A DNA stretch of 64,000 nt from Coriobacteriia bacterium (lineage in GTDB: Bacteria; Actinomycetota; Coriobacteriia; Coriobacteriales; UBA8131). The notes under the pieces were generated by a model. It was given only the letters and a program-made list of their open reading frames with translations, was not told the DNA's origin and made no database searches. Within the stretch, counting starts at the first letter, position 1, and each line of letters begins with the position of its first letter. Below are positions 4,952-16,621 of this stretch, in pieces. Where the stretch lies: the NCBI GenBank assembly GCA_009784945.1, contig WQXH01000005.1, positions 1 through 64,000 of the forward strand, in the 5' to 3' direction. The position numbers and the translations under genes are program-made.

Positions 4952-5023
4952 ATGGCAGCCGAGCTCAACGAGATTACCTCACTGAAGCCCAGCGAGGAAA
5001 GCGTTCTGAGGGCTGTTTCCTGA
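4952..5023 (+). pseudogene. 3' remnant of the island A integrase
   Basis: AAELNEITSLKPSEESVLRAVS* matches the last residues of the integrase ending at 16349; downstream DNA is also shared. Confidence 0.85.
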
Positions 5024-5257
5024 CACTTCGAATAACGGTGTAATGATGTTGACTACAATGACTGGAAATAACCTGATGCCCAGGCTGATGTCCTGTTGTT
5101 CCAAGATTCCGGATCAAGCCCGCAATGACGGGAGTAGACAAGCCCGCAATGACGATTGGGTTTTCGTTGGCGCGGCTAATGAAGCCCGCAATGACGACAA
5201 ACAACCACTTTGGCACGACGTGTCCGCTGTCAAGCGAACCGCAATCAGCCAGAGTTT

Positions 5258-5299
5258 CTGCCACCTCTCTGCCACCAGTGGTGCAAATCCCTGCCACCA
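5258..5299. promoter_or_regulatory. Right-end integrase arm-type repeats (island A)
   Basis: CTGCCACC(A/T) at 5258, 5269 and 5291. Confidence 0.5.
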
Positions 5300-5342
5300 A
5301 ACGAAAAAAGCCAGAGGCAATAAGCCTCTGACCAGCAGTTTA

Positions 5343-5387
5343 ATGGTGGGCGATAACGGATTTGAACCGCTGACCTTGTGCGTGTAA
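5343..5387. repeat. att copy 2 (tRNA-Val 3' end duplicate)
   Basis: Identical 45 bp to att copies 1 and 3. Confidence 0.92.
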
Positions 5388-5645
5388 AGCGTGCTGGATG
5401 GGGAGAAATTAACGTATAGGTAGTTCATAAGCGTTAAGAACGGGTACCTAATCGGTCATTGAGGGATGTGGCAGACAAGCTTTCTGCCACCAATCCTGCC
5501 ACCATCTCTGCCACCAATATCGATGTGAGCCGGTGCCCTGTCTTTCGAGACAAGGCACTGGCAGGAAACAGTCTCCAGATTCGGCAGACGATGTCTGCTG
5601 AATTCATCAAGTACCACCCCAATCGTCATTCCGGGCCTGGCCCGG
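5388..5645. repeat. Island B left-end repeat, homologous to 2396-2650
   Basis: Shared terminal sequence with CTGCCACCA repeats at 5484, 5496 and 5508. Confidence 0.85.
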
Positions 5646-5679
5646 AATCTTGATGCTGAAACTACAAAGGAGACTTGAA

Positions 5680-6111
5680 ATGAACAAAATCAAATATGAC
5701 AAAGACCAGCCGAAAGAAGGGCTGGAGAGCCGACCGCTGCCCGAGCACATCCATGACGATAGCAACAAACTTGACTACACCCTGGTTGATGGGCACTACT
5801 ATCTACCAGACCTGCTGTCAGAGGATGAGGAGTACAGTCCAGCCATTTGGGCAAGGAGGTATTTACACTACCTCAAGGAATACCGCCCCTCATTGCTCGC
5901 CTCGATGAGGAGCTACAACCCGAGTTTACAGTTGAGCAGGATCGACAGGGATGCCGAGGAAATGTATGAGACCCTTGTTGCTCAGATGGCCAAACGCGAA
6001 GGCTTAACCGAGGAGCTGAAGCTTGAAGACCCAATGGCATGGGTTGGCCTTGCCAACTCCATCCGCCATCGCGCCGAGGAAATCGTCAAAGCAGAGGTCA
6101 TCTACAGTTGA
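5680..6111 (+). CDS. TnpV-family transposon-encoded protein
   Basis: YTLVDGHYYLPDL..RRYLHYLKEYR..AEEMYETLVAQMAKREGLTEELK..DPMAWVGLANSIRHRAEEIVKAEVIY; RBS AAAGGAGA. Confidence 0.8.
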   Translation: MNKIKYDKDQPKEGLESRPLPEHIHDDSNKLDYTLVDGHYYLPDLLSEDEEYSPAIWARRYLHYLKEYRPSLLASMRSYNPSLQLSRIDRDAEEMYETLVAQMAKREGLTEELKLEDPMAWVGLANSIRHRAEEIVKAEVIYS

Positions 6112-6235
6112 GAAATACCCGTCCAAATAGCGCGTTCACTATTAGCAAGCATGGCATTTGTCTACATGTAGCCAAATGCCTCTTCATGGGAAGCATCCCC
6201 TGGCCCCTCAGACCTACACAATCGAAAGGCTTGAT

Positions 6236-6622
6236 ATGATAACTGACAACCCCCACAACAAGGCTTTCCACATGAGGCTCACTCAAAAGGAGTACGACAA
6301 CTTGCATGCAAATGCCAAACGAGCAGGATTGCCGTTATCCACTTATATGCGTTTCATGATGAAGGCATGTCAGCCCAAGGAACAACGCCCAGTAGACTGG
6401 TTCAAGTTCTACAGCCAGCTTTGCAGAATAGGCAATAATCTCAACCAGCTCACACATCTTGCTCACCGCACAGGCAGTGTTGACGCCGATATGCACAAGC
6501 AATTCCGTGACGACTTTGATATGTTCATCAGAGCCTTGATGGAAGACATGTATCTTCCTGAGAAGTTAGATGCAACAAGGATAGTGAAAGAGGCTAAAGC
6601 TCGGTCAAGGCAAGAGCAGTAG
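6236..6622 (+). CDS. MobC-like mobilization / relaxosome accessory protein
   Basis: HMRLTQKEYDNLHANAKRAGLPLSTYMRFMM..QLCRIGNNLNQLTHLAH, a MobC-family pattern. Confidence 0.75.
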   Translation: MITDNPHNKAFHMRLTQKEYDNLHANAKRAGLPLSTYMRFMMKACQPKEQRPVDWFKFYSQLCRIGNNLNQLTHLAHRTGSVDADMHKQFRDDFDMFIRALMEDMYLPEKLDATRIVKEAKARSRQEQ

Positions 6623-6708: not shown

Positions 6709-6903
6709 CTGACTCTGTGCATACAAAGTCGATGCTTACTAATAACGAACAGGTCACTTTCTGTGCTGGACTGCATCTTGCTCAAAACCTTATCCGGCAT
6801 CGTTCGCATTTTTTTACTATGATAGGTTAGAGAGCCAGACAGGAAGCTTCTGGCTATGGTACTGTTTTGTATACGGGGAGGACATGAGCTAAGGAGACTG
6901 GGT

Positions 6904-7614
6904 ATGACGAGAGATGAATTTGCACAAAGCACCAAGGAAGCGCTTGCAAAAAGAGTGGGCTATGTTTGTTCAAACCCAGCCTGTCGCCAACCAACAAGTG
7001 GCCCTTCTGAGGAAACGGACAAAGCAATATGCGTTGGACAAGCTGCACATATCACCGCTGCTTCAGAAAGAGGGCCAAGGTATGACCATTCATTGACTCC
7101 AGACGAGCGAAGGAGCCTCTCCAATGGAATCTGGTTGTGTTACACATGTGCAAAACTAATTGATAGTGATAAAAGCGCCTATACAACTGAGAAGCTTCAT
7201 GAGTGGAGGCAAGATGCAGAAACCGCAGCTAAGCTTGCTTTGGAGCAAAGACGCTCAACATACACAGGAGACTTAGGAGTTTTCGTGGAAGCGCAAAGGC
7301 TAATGCCTGAACTAATCGCTGAGATGATAATGGACACAAAAGAAGATGACACAAGCCTGATAAGAGAGTTTGTAGTAAGAATTAGCAAAAAGGTTACATA
7401 CTGCGCAGGCGGCAAGCCTCGACTTTACTATTACGAGGATGAGCATTATAACTTGTTGAACATGTTGGATTGGATGGAAGAGGGCTCACTAATAACCTGT
7501 ATATCCCGCCGGTTTGAAAACTCTCCTCCTGTATATCACTTTAATCAAGAATTTTATAATTGGCTTCGAAACGATGAGCGTCCCATTGACTCAAGCGATT
7601 CCGCACCTCTTTGA
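6904..7614 (+). CDS. HNH endonuclease domain protein
   Basis: GYVCSNPACRQ..GQAAHITAASERGPRYD..RSLSNGIWLCYTCAKLID. Confidence 0.75.
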   Translation: MTRDEFAQSTKEALAKRVGYVCSNPACRQPTSGPSEETDKAICVGQAAHITAASERGPRYDHSLTPDERRSLSNGIWLCYTCAKLIDSDKSAYTTEKLHEWRQDAETAAKLALEQRRSTYTGDLGVFVEAQRLMPELIAEMIMDTKEDDTSLIREFVVRISKKVTYCAGGKPRLYYYEDEHYNLLNMLDWMEEGSLITCISRRFENSPPVYHFNQEFYNWLRNDERPIDSSDSAPL

Positions 7615-8834
7615 GCGAAACAATGATGGATAATCGTTCAAAAGAAATTCAAACGTTGCTTCAGGAAGATAACTGTGCTGAGATGTTTGTTTCTCGGCAC
7701 CAGGATTACCCTGACTGCACAATCCTGCTATTTGACGACACAACCATCACTCGTAATCTTCATTTTGGAGAGATGTCTGCGGGCTCATACTTTTTAACTG
7801 GCTTGTCAAATTATCAACACATTAACTTACTTAACTCAGCTTCAATACAGCTGATGCAGTCCGATTGTGAATATGCTCCATGCGGACTGATGGGGAGAGC
7901 TTATTTTGATTCTAATGCTATCGGCTCATTAAGAGAGCTTGTCTTGGGAAGCTCGTCACAGGAAAGTAAGCACGAGTCGCTTATCGAGATGCTGAATAAG
8001 TTGCTTGAGATGAGATTTGACACCATGCCAGTGCTTTATATGGCAGAAGCAGCGATTAACGAAGCAGTAGCAAGTAATCCTCGCGCCATATATGATTCAT
8101 TGCTGGGATACGCAGTAGTTCATCATGCTCTTGAGGAAAATCTAACCATTGAGGTGTCTAGCTTTCAAATTGTCGATAGAAATAAAAAAAATACAGCAAT
8201 GTCACTCTATAAGAGCACACAGAGATTTCCAGAAATAATGGAATCTGGAATAGTTCGCTTCAATGCTATTCGCAACATTTTGATGAAAGCAATTGTACTT
8301 GAGCACTCAGAAGAAAAAGCCAGCGAAAAAGCAAAGAAGCTTGTCGATTTCGTTAACCATGAGCTTTGCATCAGCCTGGTATACGAGCTTACTATTTGCA
8401 TGCAATTGTTTAAACGTGCCTCAAGTGTTCAAAAGTTTTTTGGCAGAGTAGACTCAAGTGCCCCCAGAAGTCTAAGCCTTGCCCTTAAGTGTGTTAACAG
8501 CATGGCCTGGGACATGTTCCACCTACGATTGATGAGTACCTGGATGGCACAGGAGAATGCAAGTCCACAACTGCACGTTTCACTTCCATTCCTATTGAGT
8601 GCTGATGATGGTTTACGCCGATTAATTGACGCAAACCCAATTAAGAGAATTGCCTTTGACAGAGGCGAGGCATATATGCTGTACGAGTATAGACTTGAGG
8701 ACTTCTGCAATAAGGAGCTCCAGGAGAAACTCATTAGTGGCTCAGATTATAGACATCAGCAGGCGGGTAGAAAGAATCAAGAAATACTTTATGATCTTCT
8801 AGTAAAAGACCTCAGCCAAGTTCTGGCTGAGTAA
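7611..8834 (+). CDS. Hypothetical protein (407 aa), TTG start overlapping the HNH stop
   Basis: Four-base TTGA overlap with the upstream HNH gene; family not recognised. Confidence 0.7.
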   Translation: MSETMMDNRSKEIQTLLQEDNCAEMFVSRHQDYPDCTILLFDDTTITRNLHFGEMSAGSYFLTGLSNYQHINLLNSASIQLMQSDCEYAPCGLMGRAYFDSNAIGSLRELVLGSSSQESKHESLIEMLNKLLEMRFDTMPVLYMAEAAINEAVASNPRAIYDSLLGYAVVHHALEENLTIEVSSFQIVDRNKKNTAMSLYKSTQRFPEIMESGIVRFNAIRNILMKAIVLEHSEEKASEKAKKLVDFVNHELCISLVYELTICMQLFKRASSVQKFFGRVDSSAPRSLSLALKCVNSMAWDMFHLRLMSTWMAQENASPQLHVSLPFLLSADDGLRRLIDANPIKRIAFDRGEAYMLYEYRLEDFCNKELQEKLISGSDYRHQQAGRKNQEILYDLLVKDLSQVLAE

Positions 8835-9092: not shown

Positions 9093-10211
9093 GTGCCACA
9101 GCAGATTCATGTAAGGCTTGATGACAAGGTTTACGAAAACCTAAGCAAACTCTCTGTGATTACAAAAAAACCAATCCAAGACTGTACACGAGAAGCAATC
9201 ATCTACTATATTTCGAGAGAAATGCCGCAGGAGAAACCAAAAAAACCTCGCTTCAGGTTTATTGACCTATTTGCTGGTATCGGTGGCATGAGGATCGCGT
9301 TCGAGTCAAATCGTGGTCAATGTGTGTTCTCGAGCGAGTGGGACAAATATTGCCAGCAAACATATTTCTCTAACTTTAATGAGCTACCGGCTGGTGATAT
9401 TACCATTATTGAAGCTTCTGCCATTCCTGATCACGACATTTTGGTTGCAGGCTTTCCCTGTCAGCCATTCTCGATAGCTGGAGTCTCCAAGAAGAACAGC
9501 CTTGGAAGAGATACCGGTTTTCTTGATAAGACGCAGGGGACATTATTCTTCGATGTTGCAAGGATTATCAAAGAAAAACGCCCCAAAGCCTTCCTGCTTG
9601 AGAATGTCAAAAACATCAGAAGCCACGACAAAGGGAACACCTGGAAGGTCATTATGGAAACGCTTGAGGGGCTTGATTACGAGGTTTTCTCAGATGTACT
9701 TGATGGTCAGAGTTATGTTCCTCAACATCGCGAACGAGTGCTTATTGCTGGCTTTGACCGTAAGCGCTACGGGAATGAAGTGACATTCGATTTCCCAAAG
9801 AAGAAACCACGTATTAAGCCGAAAGTCAGTGACATTCTAGAGGCAGAAGTCGACGATAGATACACGCTATCCGATCATTTGTGGCAATATCTGCAAGATT
9901 ATGCAGAGAAGCATCGCGCTAGAGGAAACGGCTTTGGTTATGGAATGGTTGACCTAGATGGCGTCACTCGGACACTAAGCGCGCGTTACTACAAGGACGG
10001 TTCGGAAGTGTTAATACCACAGGAGGGCATTAATCCCAGAAGGCTAACTCCCAGGGAGTGCGCCAGGCTTCAGGGCTTCGGAGATAATTACGTAATACCT
10101 GTTTCTGATACTCAAGCATACAAGCAATTCGGGAATTCGGTTGTGGTCCCCCTGATGACTGCTGTTGCTAAAAGCATGACAAAAACTCTGGAGGTTTTAG
10201 ATGGTCGTTGA
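9093..10211 (+). CDS. DNA (cytosine-5)-methyltransferase, EcoRII/Dcm-like, with RHH-like N-terminus
   Basis: FIDLFAGIGG, GFPCQPFS, LLENVKN, PQHRERVLIAGF, RRLTPRECARLQGF, QFGNSV motifs; GTG start. Confidence 0.93.
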   Translation: MPQQIHVRLDDKVYENLSKLSVITKKPIQDCTREAIIYYISREMPQEKPKKPRFRFIDLFAGIGGMRIAFESNRGQCVFSSEWDKYCQQTYFSNFNELPAGDITIIEASAIPDHDILVAGFPCQPFSIAGVSKKNSLGRDTGFLDKTQGTLFFDVARIIKEKRPKAFLLENVKNIRSHDKGNTWKVIMETLEGLDYEVFSDVLDGQSYVPQHRERVLIAGFDRKRYGNEVTFDFPKKKPRIKPKVSDILEAEVDDRYTLSDHLWQYLQDYAEKHRARGNGFGYGMVDLDGVTRTLSARYYKDGSEVLIPQEGINPRRLTPRECARLQGFGDNYVIPVSDTQAYKQFGNSVVVPLMTAVAKSMTKTLEVLDGR

Positions 10212-11400
10212 TGACGAACTCAGAGAGCAAGAGAGTATTGCGGATAAGGCCATTAAGGCTGTTAGCAACGGGAAGCTTGCATATTGTAAGTTTCTTTCAG
10301 CAAACGACACTGGAGATACAGGTGGACACCAAGCCGGTATCTACATCGCGAAGAACGCACTTAAGATTCTTTTTGAAACCCCTGGGGAACGCGGGCAGAA
10401 TAAAGACAAGTTTGTGAAAATCAAGTGGCAAGATGATTTCGAAACCGAGTCAAGATTCATATACTACGGGCAAGGAACAAGAAACGAGTACCGAATAACT
10501 CGGTTTGGAAGGGGCTTTCCGTTTCTCCAGACTGAACACACTGGAGATTTGTTTGTTTTCGTGCAACTGGATGATGAAAATTACTCAGGTTTCATATTGA
10601 GCACTGAAGACGATATTGAGGAGTTTCTTGGGTGCTTCGGTATGAGTCCTTCTGACACTGGCAGCGTTATCGAGATAGCTGACTTTGGAATAGAACAGCA
10701 ATTGGAAGCTTCCATGAGAGAGTTCATCAAAGCGCTGAGCGTTGACTTTCCTGAAACAAAGGAGATGGCTTTAACAGCGCAGCGCATAGAGAATGATGTC
10801 TTTGATCATGAGGAGAATGCTTTATATGACCCGGACAGTAAACTGGTCTCATGGATAGATACTGAATACACTTTATTCAGGATGATTGAGCAGGAACGTT
10901 ATGGCTCAACCATCTCTAGGGGGTTTTCCTCTGTTGAGGAATTTGTTGTGTTCGCCAACAGCGTTCTCAATAAGCGAAAGAGCAGGGCAGGACGATCTCT
11001 GGAACATCACCTGTCAAGGATATTTGACTATAATGCCCTCAGCTATTCTCCGCAGCCTCGCACCGAAGGCAATAAGCGTCCTGATTTCATCTTCCCAAGT
11101 GAAGCAGCCTACCATACACCTAATTATCCAATTGAGAAACTCGTTCTTCTCGCAGCCAAAACAACCTGTAAAGACAGATGGCGTCAGGTGATCAACGAGG
11201 CGGATCGTTTCAAGGGTAGGGAGAAGCACCTCTTCACACTCCAGCAGGGCATTTCTGCCCAACAGATGGACGAAATGCACGAGGAGGGAATAGTGCTCGT
11301 CGTTCCAGAAAAATACATCGGAACGTATCCAAAAGCGAAGCGTGAGCAAATCTGGACGTTAAGACGATTCGTAAGCTCCACAAAAGAGAAGACGGGGTAA
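10201..11400 (+). CDS. EcoRII-family type II restriction endonuclease
   Basis: C-terminus RAGRSLEHHLSRIF..TEGNKRPDFIFPSEAAYHTP..KLVLLAAKTTCKDRWRQVINEADRF resembles the R.EcoRII catalytic domain; overlaps the MTase gene. Confidence 0.85.
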   Translation: MVVDDELREQESIADKAIKAVSNGKLAYCKFLSANDTGDTGGHQAGIYIAKNALKILFETPGERGQNKDKFVKIKWQDDFETESRFIYYGQGTRNEYRITRFGRGFPFLQTEHTGDLFVFVQLDDENYSGFILSTEDDIEEFLGCFGMSPSDTGSVIEIADFGIEQQLEASMREFIKALSVDFPETKEMALTAQRIENDVFDHEENALYDPDSKLVSWIDTEYTLFRMIEQERYGSTISRGFSSVEEFVVFANSVLNKRKSRAGRSLEHHLSRIFDYNALSYSPQPRTEGNKRPDFIFPSEAAYHTPNYPIEKLVLLAAKTTCKDRWRQVINEADRFKGREKHLFTLQQGISAQQMDEMHEEGIVLVVPEKYIGTYPKAKREQIWTLRRFVSSTKEKTG

Positions 11401-11415
11401 GGGGGAATTCTGAAA

Positions 11416-11874
11416 GTGGTTAAGCAAACTGATAGCATGTTTGCAGCAACCGACACTTCAGCAGCTGATAGTGCCGCCATCCATAAATCCATGCAAGGCA
11501 ATAAAGGTAAAGACACCAGACCTGAGCTGATTGTGCGAAAAATGTTGCGAGAAGCTGGGTATCCTGGATATCGCCTGCATTGGAAGAAGGCTCCAGGAAA
11601 ACCAGACATCGCTTACCCAGGTAGGAAGATAGCCATTTTTGTCAATGGCTGTTACTGGCACCGTCACCCTGGCTGTAATCTCGCCTATACACCAAAGACC
11701 AACCAGTATTTCTGGATTAACAAATTCGAAGATACAGTCGAGCGCGACAAGCGTAACTATCAGCAGCTTGAGGAGGCAGGGTGGAAGATCTTTGTAATCT
11801 GGGAGTGTGAGCTGGGCACCTCCGGAGAGCATTGTGTCATAGATTCTATCATCAACAGTTTTGCTGCAGGGTAG
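11416..11874 (+). CDS. vsr: Very short patch repair endonuclease (Vsr)
   Basis: MQGNKGKDTRPELIVRKMLREAGYPGYRLH..GKPDIAYPGRKIAIFVNGCYWHRHPGC, the Vsr signature. Confidence 0.93.
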   Translation: MVKQTDSMFAATDTSAADSAAIHKSMQGNKGKDTRPELIVRKMLREAGYPGYRLHWKKAPGKPDIAYPGRKIAIFVNGCYWHRHPGCNLAYTPKTNQYFWINKFEDTVERDKRNYQQLEEAGWKIFVIWECELGTSGEHCVIDSIINSFAAG

Positions 11875-11891
11875 CAAAGTAAAGGAGAGCA

Positions 11892-13535
11892 ATGAGCAAA
11901 GAAAAAGATAAGAAGAACAAGCTTAATCTATATCTAATAAAAACTGGATTTGAAATGCCTGATCCTAGGAGCGCAACAGAGGTGGCAAGCGAGTCATTGT
12001 GCAATGAAGACAAGCGGGAGCAGAAGCAATTGGTTCGAGAAGGTGTTTTTGCGCAAGTGATTCCAGATGTTGGGATACTCTTTTCAAAGCCTGCTTCCAT
12101 CAACAAGCCTTCATGGGCAGAGAGGTTTTTCAAGGGCATGGTGGATACGAGCACCTTTCATGCTTCATCCACTAGTGCTGTGCTGTTAATAGAATTAGGT
12201 GTGGCTGATGGATTAAGTGAGCCACGCATTTTTGCGCAAACGTTTGGGTTGGGTCGATATCTACTCGAAGACAATGCGATAGAAGAAAGCTTCGGCTTAA
12301 AGACAGTGCTGAACATGATTGAAGTTGATTCTATTAGAAAGCTTGTTAAGACTAGTGTTGGCGGTAACCTAAAGACAAGTAGTGAGCAGATGCCATTGAA
12401 GGCAACAATGGGAGAGTTTGGACTGGATATTGATAGAGACTTACTGAGCAGGTTGACGGCAATCGGACCCGATGATGGATTGTTTTCTGGGACATTGTCT
12501 GGTGGAGACAGCATATCTTTGACTGCTCCAGTTGACATCTTTTCTTTTCGTGATTTTTGCGCACAGGCCTACGATGTGTATTTGTCGGACGAATACATAA
12601 AAAAGTTTCCTTGGTTTGACCATATAAAACCTGTCAAGGATAAGAGTCTTATCAAGCATTTGAATGCTGGACTGGTGCATGCAGTTAAAAGTGGTTCCAA
12701 AGATATATGGATGGCGGTTCCGGAAATAATTGATTGGGAGAAGACTTGTGGATTCAAATATCTTGGTATTCGAGAGCCAGTGGACGATATTATTCTCAAT
12801 GAGGTTTTAGGTGCAATGTGCGAGGAGCTTACTGAGTTCGAGCAATTCGAAAGTGTTAGAATTCGGATGATAAGCGCAGAGGACAGCAGCTGTCTTTCAA
12901 GTTGGCCAGCCAACAAATGTCTGTATGGAGAACTTACGTTAGACGACAAGCAGTTTTGCATAAGCAACGGCAAATGGTTTCAGATAAGTAAAGATTTTGC
13001 TGATGATATACGCCAGAGTTATGAGAGCACAACAGTGTCCGATTTTCCGTTTATCAACTATGCTGGCAACATTAAGAATGAGCAAAACTATAACAGCGCG
13101 CTGGTCGAACAAAACCCAACTGACTGTCTTTTGATGGATAGGAGAAATGTCGTGTATGGGGGAGGCCACAGTAAGGTCGAGCTATGTGATGTGCTGACAG
13201 CAGACGGCAAATTGATTCATACTAAAATCTATTCAGGTTCTTCTACGCTAAGCCACTTGTTTAATCAAGGTCTTGTTTCTGCTGGGCTATCTAAATCTGA
13301 TACAGGATTCTTGGCTAAAGCTAATGAGAAAATCGCTGAGGCTGGAGGATGTGAGAGGTTTGTCTTAAAGAATGATTCCATTAACGAAGTGGTGTTCGGG
13401 ATAGTATCCAAGGAAGACACGAATCTTCCTCAGATTCCCTTTTTCAGCAAGGTCGCATTCCATTACGTCAAGGCCCAGCTAAAGATGATTGGGCTGAAAG
13501 TCTCACTAAGAACAATTGTGAAGACTCTGGTTTAG
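11892..13535 (+). CDS. DUF6119 / TIGR04141-like sporadically distributed protein
   Basis: KLNLYLIK..; GKWFQISKDFADDI; DRRNVVYGGGHSKVELCDVLTADGKLIHTKIYSGSSTLSHLFNQGLVSA. Confidence 0.75.
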   Translation: MSKEKDKKNKLNLYLIKTGFEMPDPRSATEVASESLCNEDKREQKQLVREGVFAQVIPDVGILFSKPASINKPSWAERFFKGMVDTSTFHASSTSAVLLIELGVADGLSEPRIFAQTFGLGRYLLEDNAIEESFGLKTVLNMIEVDSIRKLVKTSVGGNLKTSSEQMPLKATMGEFGLDIDRDLLSRLTAIGPDDGLFSGTLSGGDSISLTAPVDIFSFRDFCAQAYDVYLSDEYIKKFPWFDHIKPVKDKSLIKHLNAGLVHAVKSGSKDIWMAVPEIIDWEKTCGFKYLGIREPVDDIILNEVLGAMCEELTEFEQFESVRIRMISAEDSSCLSSWPANKCLYGELTLDDKQFCISNGKWFQISKDFADDIRQSYESTTVSDFPFINYAGNIKNEQNYNSALVEQNPTDCLLMDRRNVVYGGGHSKVELCDVLTADGKLIHTKIYSGSSTLSHLFNQGLVSAGLSKSDTGFLAKANEKIAEAGGCERFVLKNDSINEVVFGIVSKEDTNLPQIPFFSKVAFHYVKAQLKMIGLKVSLRTIVKTLV

Positions 13536-15122: not shown

Positions 15123-16349
15123 GTGAATGATATGAAAGTGTATGGAAACGGTTCTGTGGTTAAGAAAGGCAAAGGCTTCCTTCTTCGGGTAGTAATTGGC
15201 TACGGTGAGGACGGAGAGCCTATTCGCAAGTCTAAGTCAGCAAAAACACAATCCAAGCGGCAAGCTGATAAATTGTTACGTGAGTGGATTCGCGAGCTTG
15301 AGGCAATGGTTACCACTGTTGAAGGAGAGAAGATGACGGTGAGCGAGCTCTTGCAGTTTCACATCGACATTCTGGATGAGACAAAGAGTGTGCGACCAAG
15401 AACGATTGATGGCTATCGCAAGCTCAAGCTCTATGCAGACAAGATGATAGGCAGCAAGCTCATCATAGAGCTAACGTTTGCAGACATTGAAGAGTTCTGT
15501 TTAGAGCTGAAGAGGACTGGCGGTGCTGACGGCAACAGCCTGAGCGCCAATACGGTTATCAAGGTTTTCACGCTCATTAAGGCAGCTCTCAAGCAAGCGG
15601 TCAAGCGACGTTGGATTCCCTACAATCCAGCAATTGATGCAAACCCCTTCAAGCTGGAGAAGCCAGAGGTGCATATCCTTAGTGAAGATGAGACTCGTCG
15701 CTTTATCGCACGGGTGCTGGAGTACCCACGCAAGGATCAGGCGGCAGCCATGCTCATCAGCGTATGCTGCGGCACGAGGCGTGGTGAGGTTTGTTCTCTC
15801 AGGTGGAGTGACATCGATCTGGATAAACAGGTCGTCTATCTGCGCAATGCGGTATCAGAGGTATCAAAGCAACAAGGTAGCGGAAAGACGCTGCACTTCG
15901 ATTCTCCCAAGAACGCCAATGGTACAAGGGATATCCCCATTCCAGACATCTGCGCTGACTATCTCCGCAAGGAGAAGGAGGAGCAACGTCAAAGGTTGGC
16001 GTACTTCAACCTCCATCAAGGTGAGGACACGCCAGTCTGTGCCAACAGCAAGGGCGGCTTCATGCGCCCATCCAACCTCTCGAAGTTCTCAAAGACCTTC
16101 CTGTTGGATAACGGCTTTGACCCAAGGCTCACGCTGCACAGTCTGCGGCATGGATTTGTGACCCACCTGCTCGACAGAGGAATGCCTGCCAATCAGATTG
16201 GTCAGATATCTGGCCAAACGCCTAAGGTGGTACTCGACACCTATGGCAACCACAGAAGTGAAGCTGTCATCCAAAAACTGGCAGCAGAGCTCAACGAGAT
16301 TACCTCACTGAAGCCCAGCGAGGAAAGCGCTCTGAGGGCTGTTTCCTGA
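15123..16349 (+). CDS. Tyrosine recombinase / integrase
   Basis: CGTRRGEVCSLRWSDID, LHSLRHGFVTHLLDRG, YGNH; adjacent to tRNA-Val att. Confidence 0.95.
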   Translation: MNDMKVYGNGSVVKKGKGFLLRVVIGYGEDGEPIRKSKSAKTQSKRQADKLLREWIRELEAMVTTVEGEKMTVSELLQFHIDILDETKSVRPRTIDGYRKLKLYADKMIGSKLIIELTFADIEEFCLELKRTGGADGNSLSANTVIKVFTLIKAALKQAVKRRWIPYNPAIDANPFKLEKPEVHILSEDETRRFIARVLEYPRKDQAAAMLISVCCGTRRGEVCSLRWSDIDLDKQVVYLRNAVSEVSKQQGSGKTLHFDSPKNANGTRDIPIPDICADYLRKEKEEQRQRLAYFNLHQGEDTPVCANSKGGFMRPSNLSKFSKTFLLDNGFDPRLTLHSLRHGFVTHLLDRGMPANQIGQISGQTPKVVLDTYGNHRSEAVIQKLAAELNEITSLKPSEESALRAVS

Positions 16350-16460
16350 CACTTCGATTACTGGTGCAATGATGATGACTACAATGACCGAAAACTACCC
16401 CAAACAACCACTTTGGCACGACGTTTCCGCTGTCAAGCGAACCGCAATCAGCCAAAGTTT

Positions 16461-16502
16461 CTGCCACCTCTCTGCCACCAAGGGTACAAATCCCTGCCAC
16501 CA
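16461..16502. promoter_or_regulatory. Right-end integrase arm-type repeats (island B)
   Basis: CTGCCACC(A/T) at 16461, 16472 and 16494 (spacing 11 and 22 bp). Confidence 0.5.
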
Positions 16503-16545
16503 AATCAAAAAAGTCAGAGCGAATAACGCTCTGACCAGCAGTTTA

Positions 16546-16590
16546 ATGGTGGGCGATAACGGATTTGAACCGCTGACCTTGTGCGTGTAA
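16546..16590. repeat. att copy 3 within the intact tRNA-Val gene
   Basis: Same 45 bp as copies 1 and 2. Confidence 0.92.
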
Positions 16591-16621
16591 AGCACCTGCG
16601 CTACCGCTGCGCCAATCGCCC
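16547..16621 (-). tRNA. tRNA-Val (anticodon UAC), CCA encoded
   Basis: GGGCGATTGGCGCAGCGGTAGCGCAGGTGCTTTACACGCACAAGGTCAGCGGTTCAAATCCGTTATCGCCCACCA; loop TTTACAC. Confidence 0.92.

Follow-up and report, generated by a model that had tools for sequence, protein, structure and literature searches.

Among the described defence systems, those closest to the HNH protein of our locus are the CBASS Cap5/SAVED-HNH effectors (PDB 7rwm; PMC8568899), which share with it an N-terminal HNH domain of the AHI...N...LC..x.KLID layout, and the PADLOC candidate PDC-M68, whose component PDC-M68A is its best PADLOC match (1.8e-28, aa 1-116). The locus lies in the window, i.e. the whole analysed stretch of 64,000 nucleotides from a Coriobacteriia bacterium, and comprises the following features:

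6904-7614 (stop included), plus strand: gene of the HNH protein, 236 aa (ORF, strong Shine-Dalgarno sequence and PADLOC matches)
6891-6896, plus strand: Shine-Dalgarno sequence AAGGAG of the HNH gene (duplex -9.1 kcal/mol)
6904-7248, plus strand: HNH nuclease domain with zinc site, aa 1-115 (H49, N74; C22, C27, C79, C82)
7249-7611, plus strand: private C-terminal region of the HNH protein, aa 116-236 (homologue comparison)
7611-8834, plus strand: gene of the 407-aa protein (TTG 7611, alternative ATG 7623; ORF, no library family above cut-off)

In contrast to Cap5, the window HNH protein lacks a SAVED domain, and all SAVED-HNH models match its aa 1-119 only (the CBASS HNH effector models of PADLOC at 1e-9 to 1e-15); the SAVED protein 7rwm itself is matched at 0.002. 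No CD-NTase was found among the neighbouring proteins scanned (NikA/MobC, the EcoRII restriction-modification proteins, Vsr, a TIGR04141 protein and, further off, AbiE). The pair was therefore not assigned to CBASS: the HNH domain is present, but it is accompanied by neither SAVED nor CD-NTase. As for PDC-M68, the match covers only the N-terminal 115 of the 253 model positions and no second component was recognised among the neighbours, so this assignment was rejected as well. Septu, which combines the PtuA ATPase with the HNH protein PtuB, was ruled out, as the Walker A motif (GxxxxGK[ST]) is absent from both proteins and a partner ATPase is thus missing. The best match among PDB sequences is the HNH endonuclease 9om4 (435 aa; 8e-11, aa 9-116), which, according to this sequence search, shows no relation to the window protein in its remaining 320 residues.

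The HNH gene, its junction and its genomic setting

The HNH protein starts at ATG 6904 and not at the beginning of the longer ORF (6856), since the former is preceded by the strong Shine-Dalgarno sequence and the homologues begin at the same place. Its N-terminal half is, judging from the sequence, the nuclease domain of the CBASS Cap5/SAVED-HNH effectors without SAVED. Catalytic and zinc residues were assigned by pattern: H49 and N74 are retained and C22/C27/C79/C82 form a likely zinc site, while the last histidine of the H-N-H pattern is replaced by Ala83 according to the alignment, which makes nuclease activity of the protein probable, not certain. The C-terminal region (aa 116-236) is not SAVED and was found only in homologues from Sphingopyxis, the sole plasmid match to it (E 2e-3), and Skermanella.

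According to the initial annotation, the stop codon of the HNH gene overlaps the TTG start of the second gene. The tetranucleotide TTGA is indeed found at 7611-7614 and both ORFs have the coordinates ascribed to them; however, ATGATG (7623/7626) is an equally good start, ATG 7623 gives a protein of 403 aa, and the relatives of the 407-aa protein align from this ATG onwards. The literal overlap is thus not certain, and the two genes either overlap or lie 9 nt apart, depending on the start. A strong Shine-Dalgarno sequence precedes the first gene only, whereas it is weak (-1.4 to -2.4) at all three start candidates of the second one, so that translation of the latter probably depends on the upstream gene. 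Translational coupling of the two genes is likely.

The surroundings of the pair are organised as follows:

5343-5390, plus strand: left att-like direct repeat, 48-nt core of a longer repeat (repeat comparison)
6158-6622: NikA/MobC
9093-11874: EcoRII-type methylase, restriction endonuclease and Vsr
15123-16349, plus strand: tyrosine integrase of the element (Pfam Phage_integrase, 2.6e-15)
16546-16593, plus strand: right att-like repeat in the 3' part of tRNA-Val (repeat comparison)
16547-16621, minus strand: tRNA-Val

Imperfect long direct repeats (4953-5390 and 16279-16593, 91-94% identical) end in the 48-nt core, which corresponds to the 3' part of tRNA-Val and has a third copy at 2351-2398. 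The three copies (2351, 5343, 16546) suggest two tandem elements integrated at tRNA-Val. The first of them (about 2.35-5.4 kb) carries an AbiEi/AbiEii pair; the second (about 5.3-16.6 kb) carries TnpV (ORF 5650-6111, not a mobilisation gene), NikA/MobC, the HNH-407 pair, the EcoRII-type methylase and endonuclease with Vsr, a TIGR04141/DUF6119 protein and the integrase. The pair is thus mobile cargo adjoining restriction-modification genes. The location between the mobilisation genes and the restriction-modification block, as originally described, was confirmed, and the idea of defence cargo is supported: both genes look like phage-defence cargo of a mobile element. The G+C content of the pair is 0.42-0.45, whereas the downstream part of the window has about 0.51. 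In the region 9093-13535 the EcoRII-type methylase, the EcoRII-like endonuclease and Vsr are followed in the same orientation by the TIGR04141/DUF6119 protein of unknown function, a recurrent neighbour of restriction-modification genes.

Distribution and neighbours of the 407-aa protein family

No family had been recognised for the 407-aa protein, and this still holds: it has no match above the cut-off in Pfam and NCBIfam (sub-threshold ones only) and none in PADLOC or PHROGs, i.e. the family is without an entry in the four libraries searched. The single-sequence search of the genome and viral collections retrieved no close homologue. Tblastn and profile searches revealed relatives in Pantoea, Enterobacter, Legionella, Klebsiella, Bacillus and Streptococcus phage records, and further ones in Streptococcus, Legionellales, Roseateles, Erwinia, Testudinibacter and viral contigs. 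Counted by the last 150 aa, with fragments included, 36 distinct members of the family were found, the window copy and 35 further relatives (Streptococcus, Legionella, Enterobacterales, Bacillus, Roseateles, prophages, plasmids). By profile, and with the seeds included, it occurs in 11 of 248 genomes of the family Streptococcaceae, 6 of 296 of the order of Erwinia, 4 of 142 of the order of Legionella and 2 of 300 of the order of Roseateles. Considering this sporadic distribution and the lack of the family in 400 other genomes of the window's class (0/400), the gene is regarded as horizontally acquired here. Members that are 68-87% identical show dN/dS of 0.11-0.27, i.e. purifying selection. 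It is a sporadic, mobile and mostly solo protein family.

The initial annotation had proposed a candidate new two-gene defence system, to be given up if the pair were not conserved elsewhere, and the pair was absent from the other genomes examined. With the HNH-type profile and flanks of about 1.5 to 6 kb, the window copy (1 of the 36 distinct members) was the only 407-family gene found to have the HNH gene as a neighbour, and none of the other 35 did; rare HNH-407 pairs may nevertheless occur in viral contigs. Conversely, the HNH relatives in Sphingopyxis, Skermanella, Salmonella, E. coli plasmids and P2-EC46 are all without a 407-aa partner, the full-length homologues of Sphingopyxis and Skermanella included. 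A genuine two-gene system that is rare in databases, with the 407-aa protein sensing infection or regulating the HNH nuclease and both proteins required, is therefore rather unlikely. Two observations speak for it: the genes overlap or are spaced by 9 nt and only the first has a strong Shine-Dalgarno sequence, and the streptococcal copies of the family also follow a tightly linked upstream gene (HEPN-like), so that the family can live in operons.

The neighbours of the family vary and many copies stand alone. Avs3a is located downstream of the gene in Klebsiella variicola, PD-Lambda-1 near the Enterobacter copy, and AbiE-like genes adjoin the Legionella copy. Some copies occupy prophage cargo positions; one (L083:4959-6230) is flanked by phage structural genes, as is typical of morons. 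In streptococci, a protein of 326-412 aa that bears a HEPN-like RxxxxH motif is encoded about 24 nt or less upstream. This RHMI(G/S)H HEPN-like protein and the 407 family (loci L005, L013-L016, L018, L041-L044) make up a candidate two-gene unit, better conserved than the window pair; in L005 it is preceded by an Mrr-type restriction protein. At two other loci (L054 and L081) an uncharacterised HExxH protein (about 440-480 aa) is encoded directly upstream. Upstream of Enterobacter/viral-contig copies, next to a DprA-like gene, a different HNH-like protein of 212 aa is encoded (L023:3720-4358; a truncated ORF in L003). It was rejected as an equivalent of the window partner, being of another type, undetected by the window HNH profile and about 260 nt or more away.

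Conserved residues and predicted fold of the 407-aa protein

With numbering from ATG 7623, the following conserved residues were identified in the 20-member alignment, all of them present in the window copy:

7908-7910, plus strand: D96 of the DSN motif, invariant
8046-8048, plus strand: E142, invariant
8385-8387, plus strand: E255, invariant, in the helical insert
8511-8513, plus strand: D297 of the AWD motif, invariant
8604-8606, plus strand: D328 of the (T/S)xD motif, near-invariant (E in one member)

In these 20 diverse members, which are 13-20% identical to the window protein, D96, E142, E255, D297 and R302 are, besides Met1, the five invariant residues; W296 is, like D328, near-invariant. 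Four conserved acids thus follow one another in the order D-E-D-D (D96, E142, D297, D328). The loose resemblance to a PIN-like D-x-N core that had been noticed earlier is supported by the anatomy of the protein: the motif GRAYFDSNAIGSLRELV is real, its aspartate (D96) is invariant and sits where a PIN-like catalytic Asp would be. No significant profile or fold match accompanies it. PIN was sought by Pfam, PDB profile search, hhalign and Foldseek, and nothing significant was obtained in any of the four. Foldseek gave no significant match in PDB for either the window model or that of a Legionella relative and none among viral structures for the former (best E 0.17), and hhalign against eight VapC-like PIN proteins yielded E of 0.07-0.19, not significant. 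Run on the full alignment, hhalign did pair D96 and E142 with the D and E of PIN; with E of 0.19, this was not taken as proof. A few weak viral matches of the first (window) model, to XRN, FEN or vhs proteins (PIN/FEN-like, E>1), were not counted. 'PIN-like' is thus a reading of the anatomy of the protein.

This anatomy was derived from models. That of the window protein is weak (pLDDT 62), and the family was represented by an AF2 model of the Legionella relative (17% identity) built with 12 diverse sequences (pLDDT 83, pTM 0.82). In the latter, strand 96-102 is followed by D103 and strand 137-140 by a helix with E147; the helices 158-284 contain E265, the next helix holds D302 and R307, and strand 323-330 is followed by (T)xD332, a helix and strand 344-350. 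Of the acids, D103 thus marks the end of strand 1, E147 belongs to the helix that follows strand 2, D302 is placed halfway along the helix preceding the next core strand, and D332 comes directly behind this strand. Such an order of secondary structure elements would be that of a PIN core interrupted by a large helical insert. On the model, the 407-aa protein would share with the PIN-like nucleases (VapC, Pfam PIN clan) the D-x-N behind strand 1, the E of the helix following strand 2, the D of the helix that leads to the next core strand and the (T/S)xD behind the latter; in contrast to them, the 407-aa protein has a helical insert of about 130 residues, a 95-residue N-terminal extension and the extra invariant E255 and R302. 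The classic PIN set is not known to include this Glu and Arg.

These two extra residues, together with the lack of profile or fold matches to PIN, would agree with another function of the family, as a different Mg2+-binding alpha/beta enzyme or an element-maintenance protein without nuclease activity. We consider this unlikely, as the order and placement of the four acids on the model match PIN and defence-type neighbours recur. Quite improbable is a toxin with its immunity protein, one gene restraining the other (e.g., the 407-aa protein neutralising the HNH nuclease): gene order and coupling do resemble toxin-antitoxin pairs, but the 407-aa relatives are mostly without any HNH, the HNH relatives are without the 407-aa gene, and the conserved acids suggest catalysis and not pure binding.

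Possible role of the two genes

On balance, we are inclined to regard the pair as two defence-type cargo genes in one transcription unit of a mobilisable integrative element and not as a conserved system, with the 407-aa protein as a putative PIN-like abortive-infection RNase. Its gene would most likely be PIN-like RNase-type defence cargo that was coupled to the HNH effector by chance or recently. The tight overlap and the second gene without a Shine-Dalgarno sequence of its own suggest co-expression, which chance juxtaposition would not need, and this counts against the cargo explanation.

The sequences, the family and its conservation, the failure of the pair to be conserved and its mobile setting have been shown; nuclease chemistry, target, trigger and anti-phage function are what we infer for the two cargo proteins. 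The HNH protein would cut DNA by means of its Cap5-type HNH domain, with the small C-terminal region restraining or triggering it. In the 407-aa protein, a PIN-like nuclease site dependent on Mg2+ is probably made up of D96, E142, D297 and D328, and the long helical insert with E255 may serve as a regulator or sensor; the protein would most likely act as an infection-triggered abortive-infection RNase.

More tentatively, the 407-aa proteins may constitute a widespread and mobile family of defence proteins that is as yet undescribed; they would be PIN-like nucleases with a long helical sensor insert, mostly solo but able to take swappable upstream partners (HNH here, the RxxxxH HEPN-like protein in streptococci, HExxH at two loci). 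The HNH two-gene system was a false lead, and it is replaced by a testable one at the level of the family, with precise candidate catalytic residues. Members of this family occur on prophages, plasmids and islands in hosts ranging from Streptococcus to Legionella, and defence genes are repeatedly found next to them.
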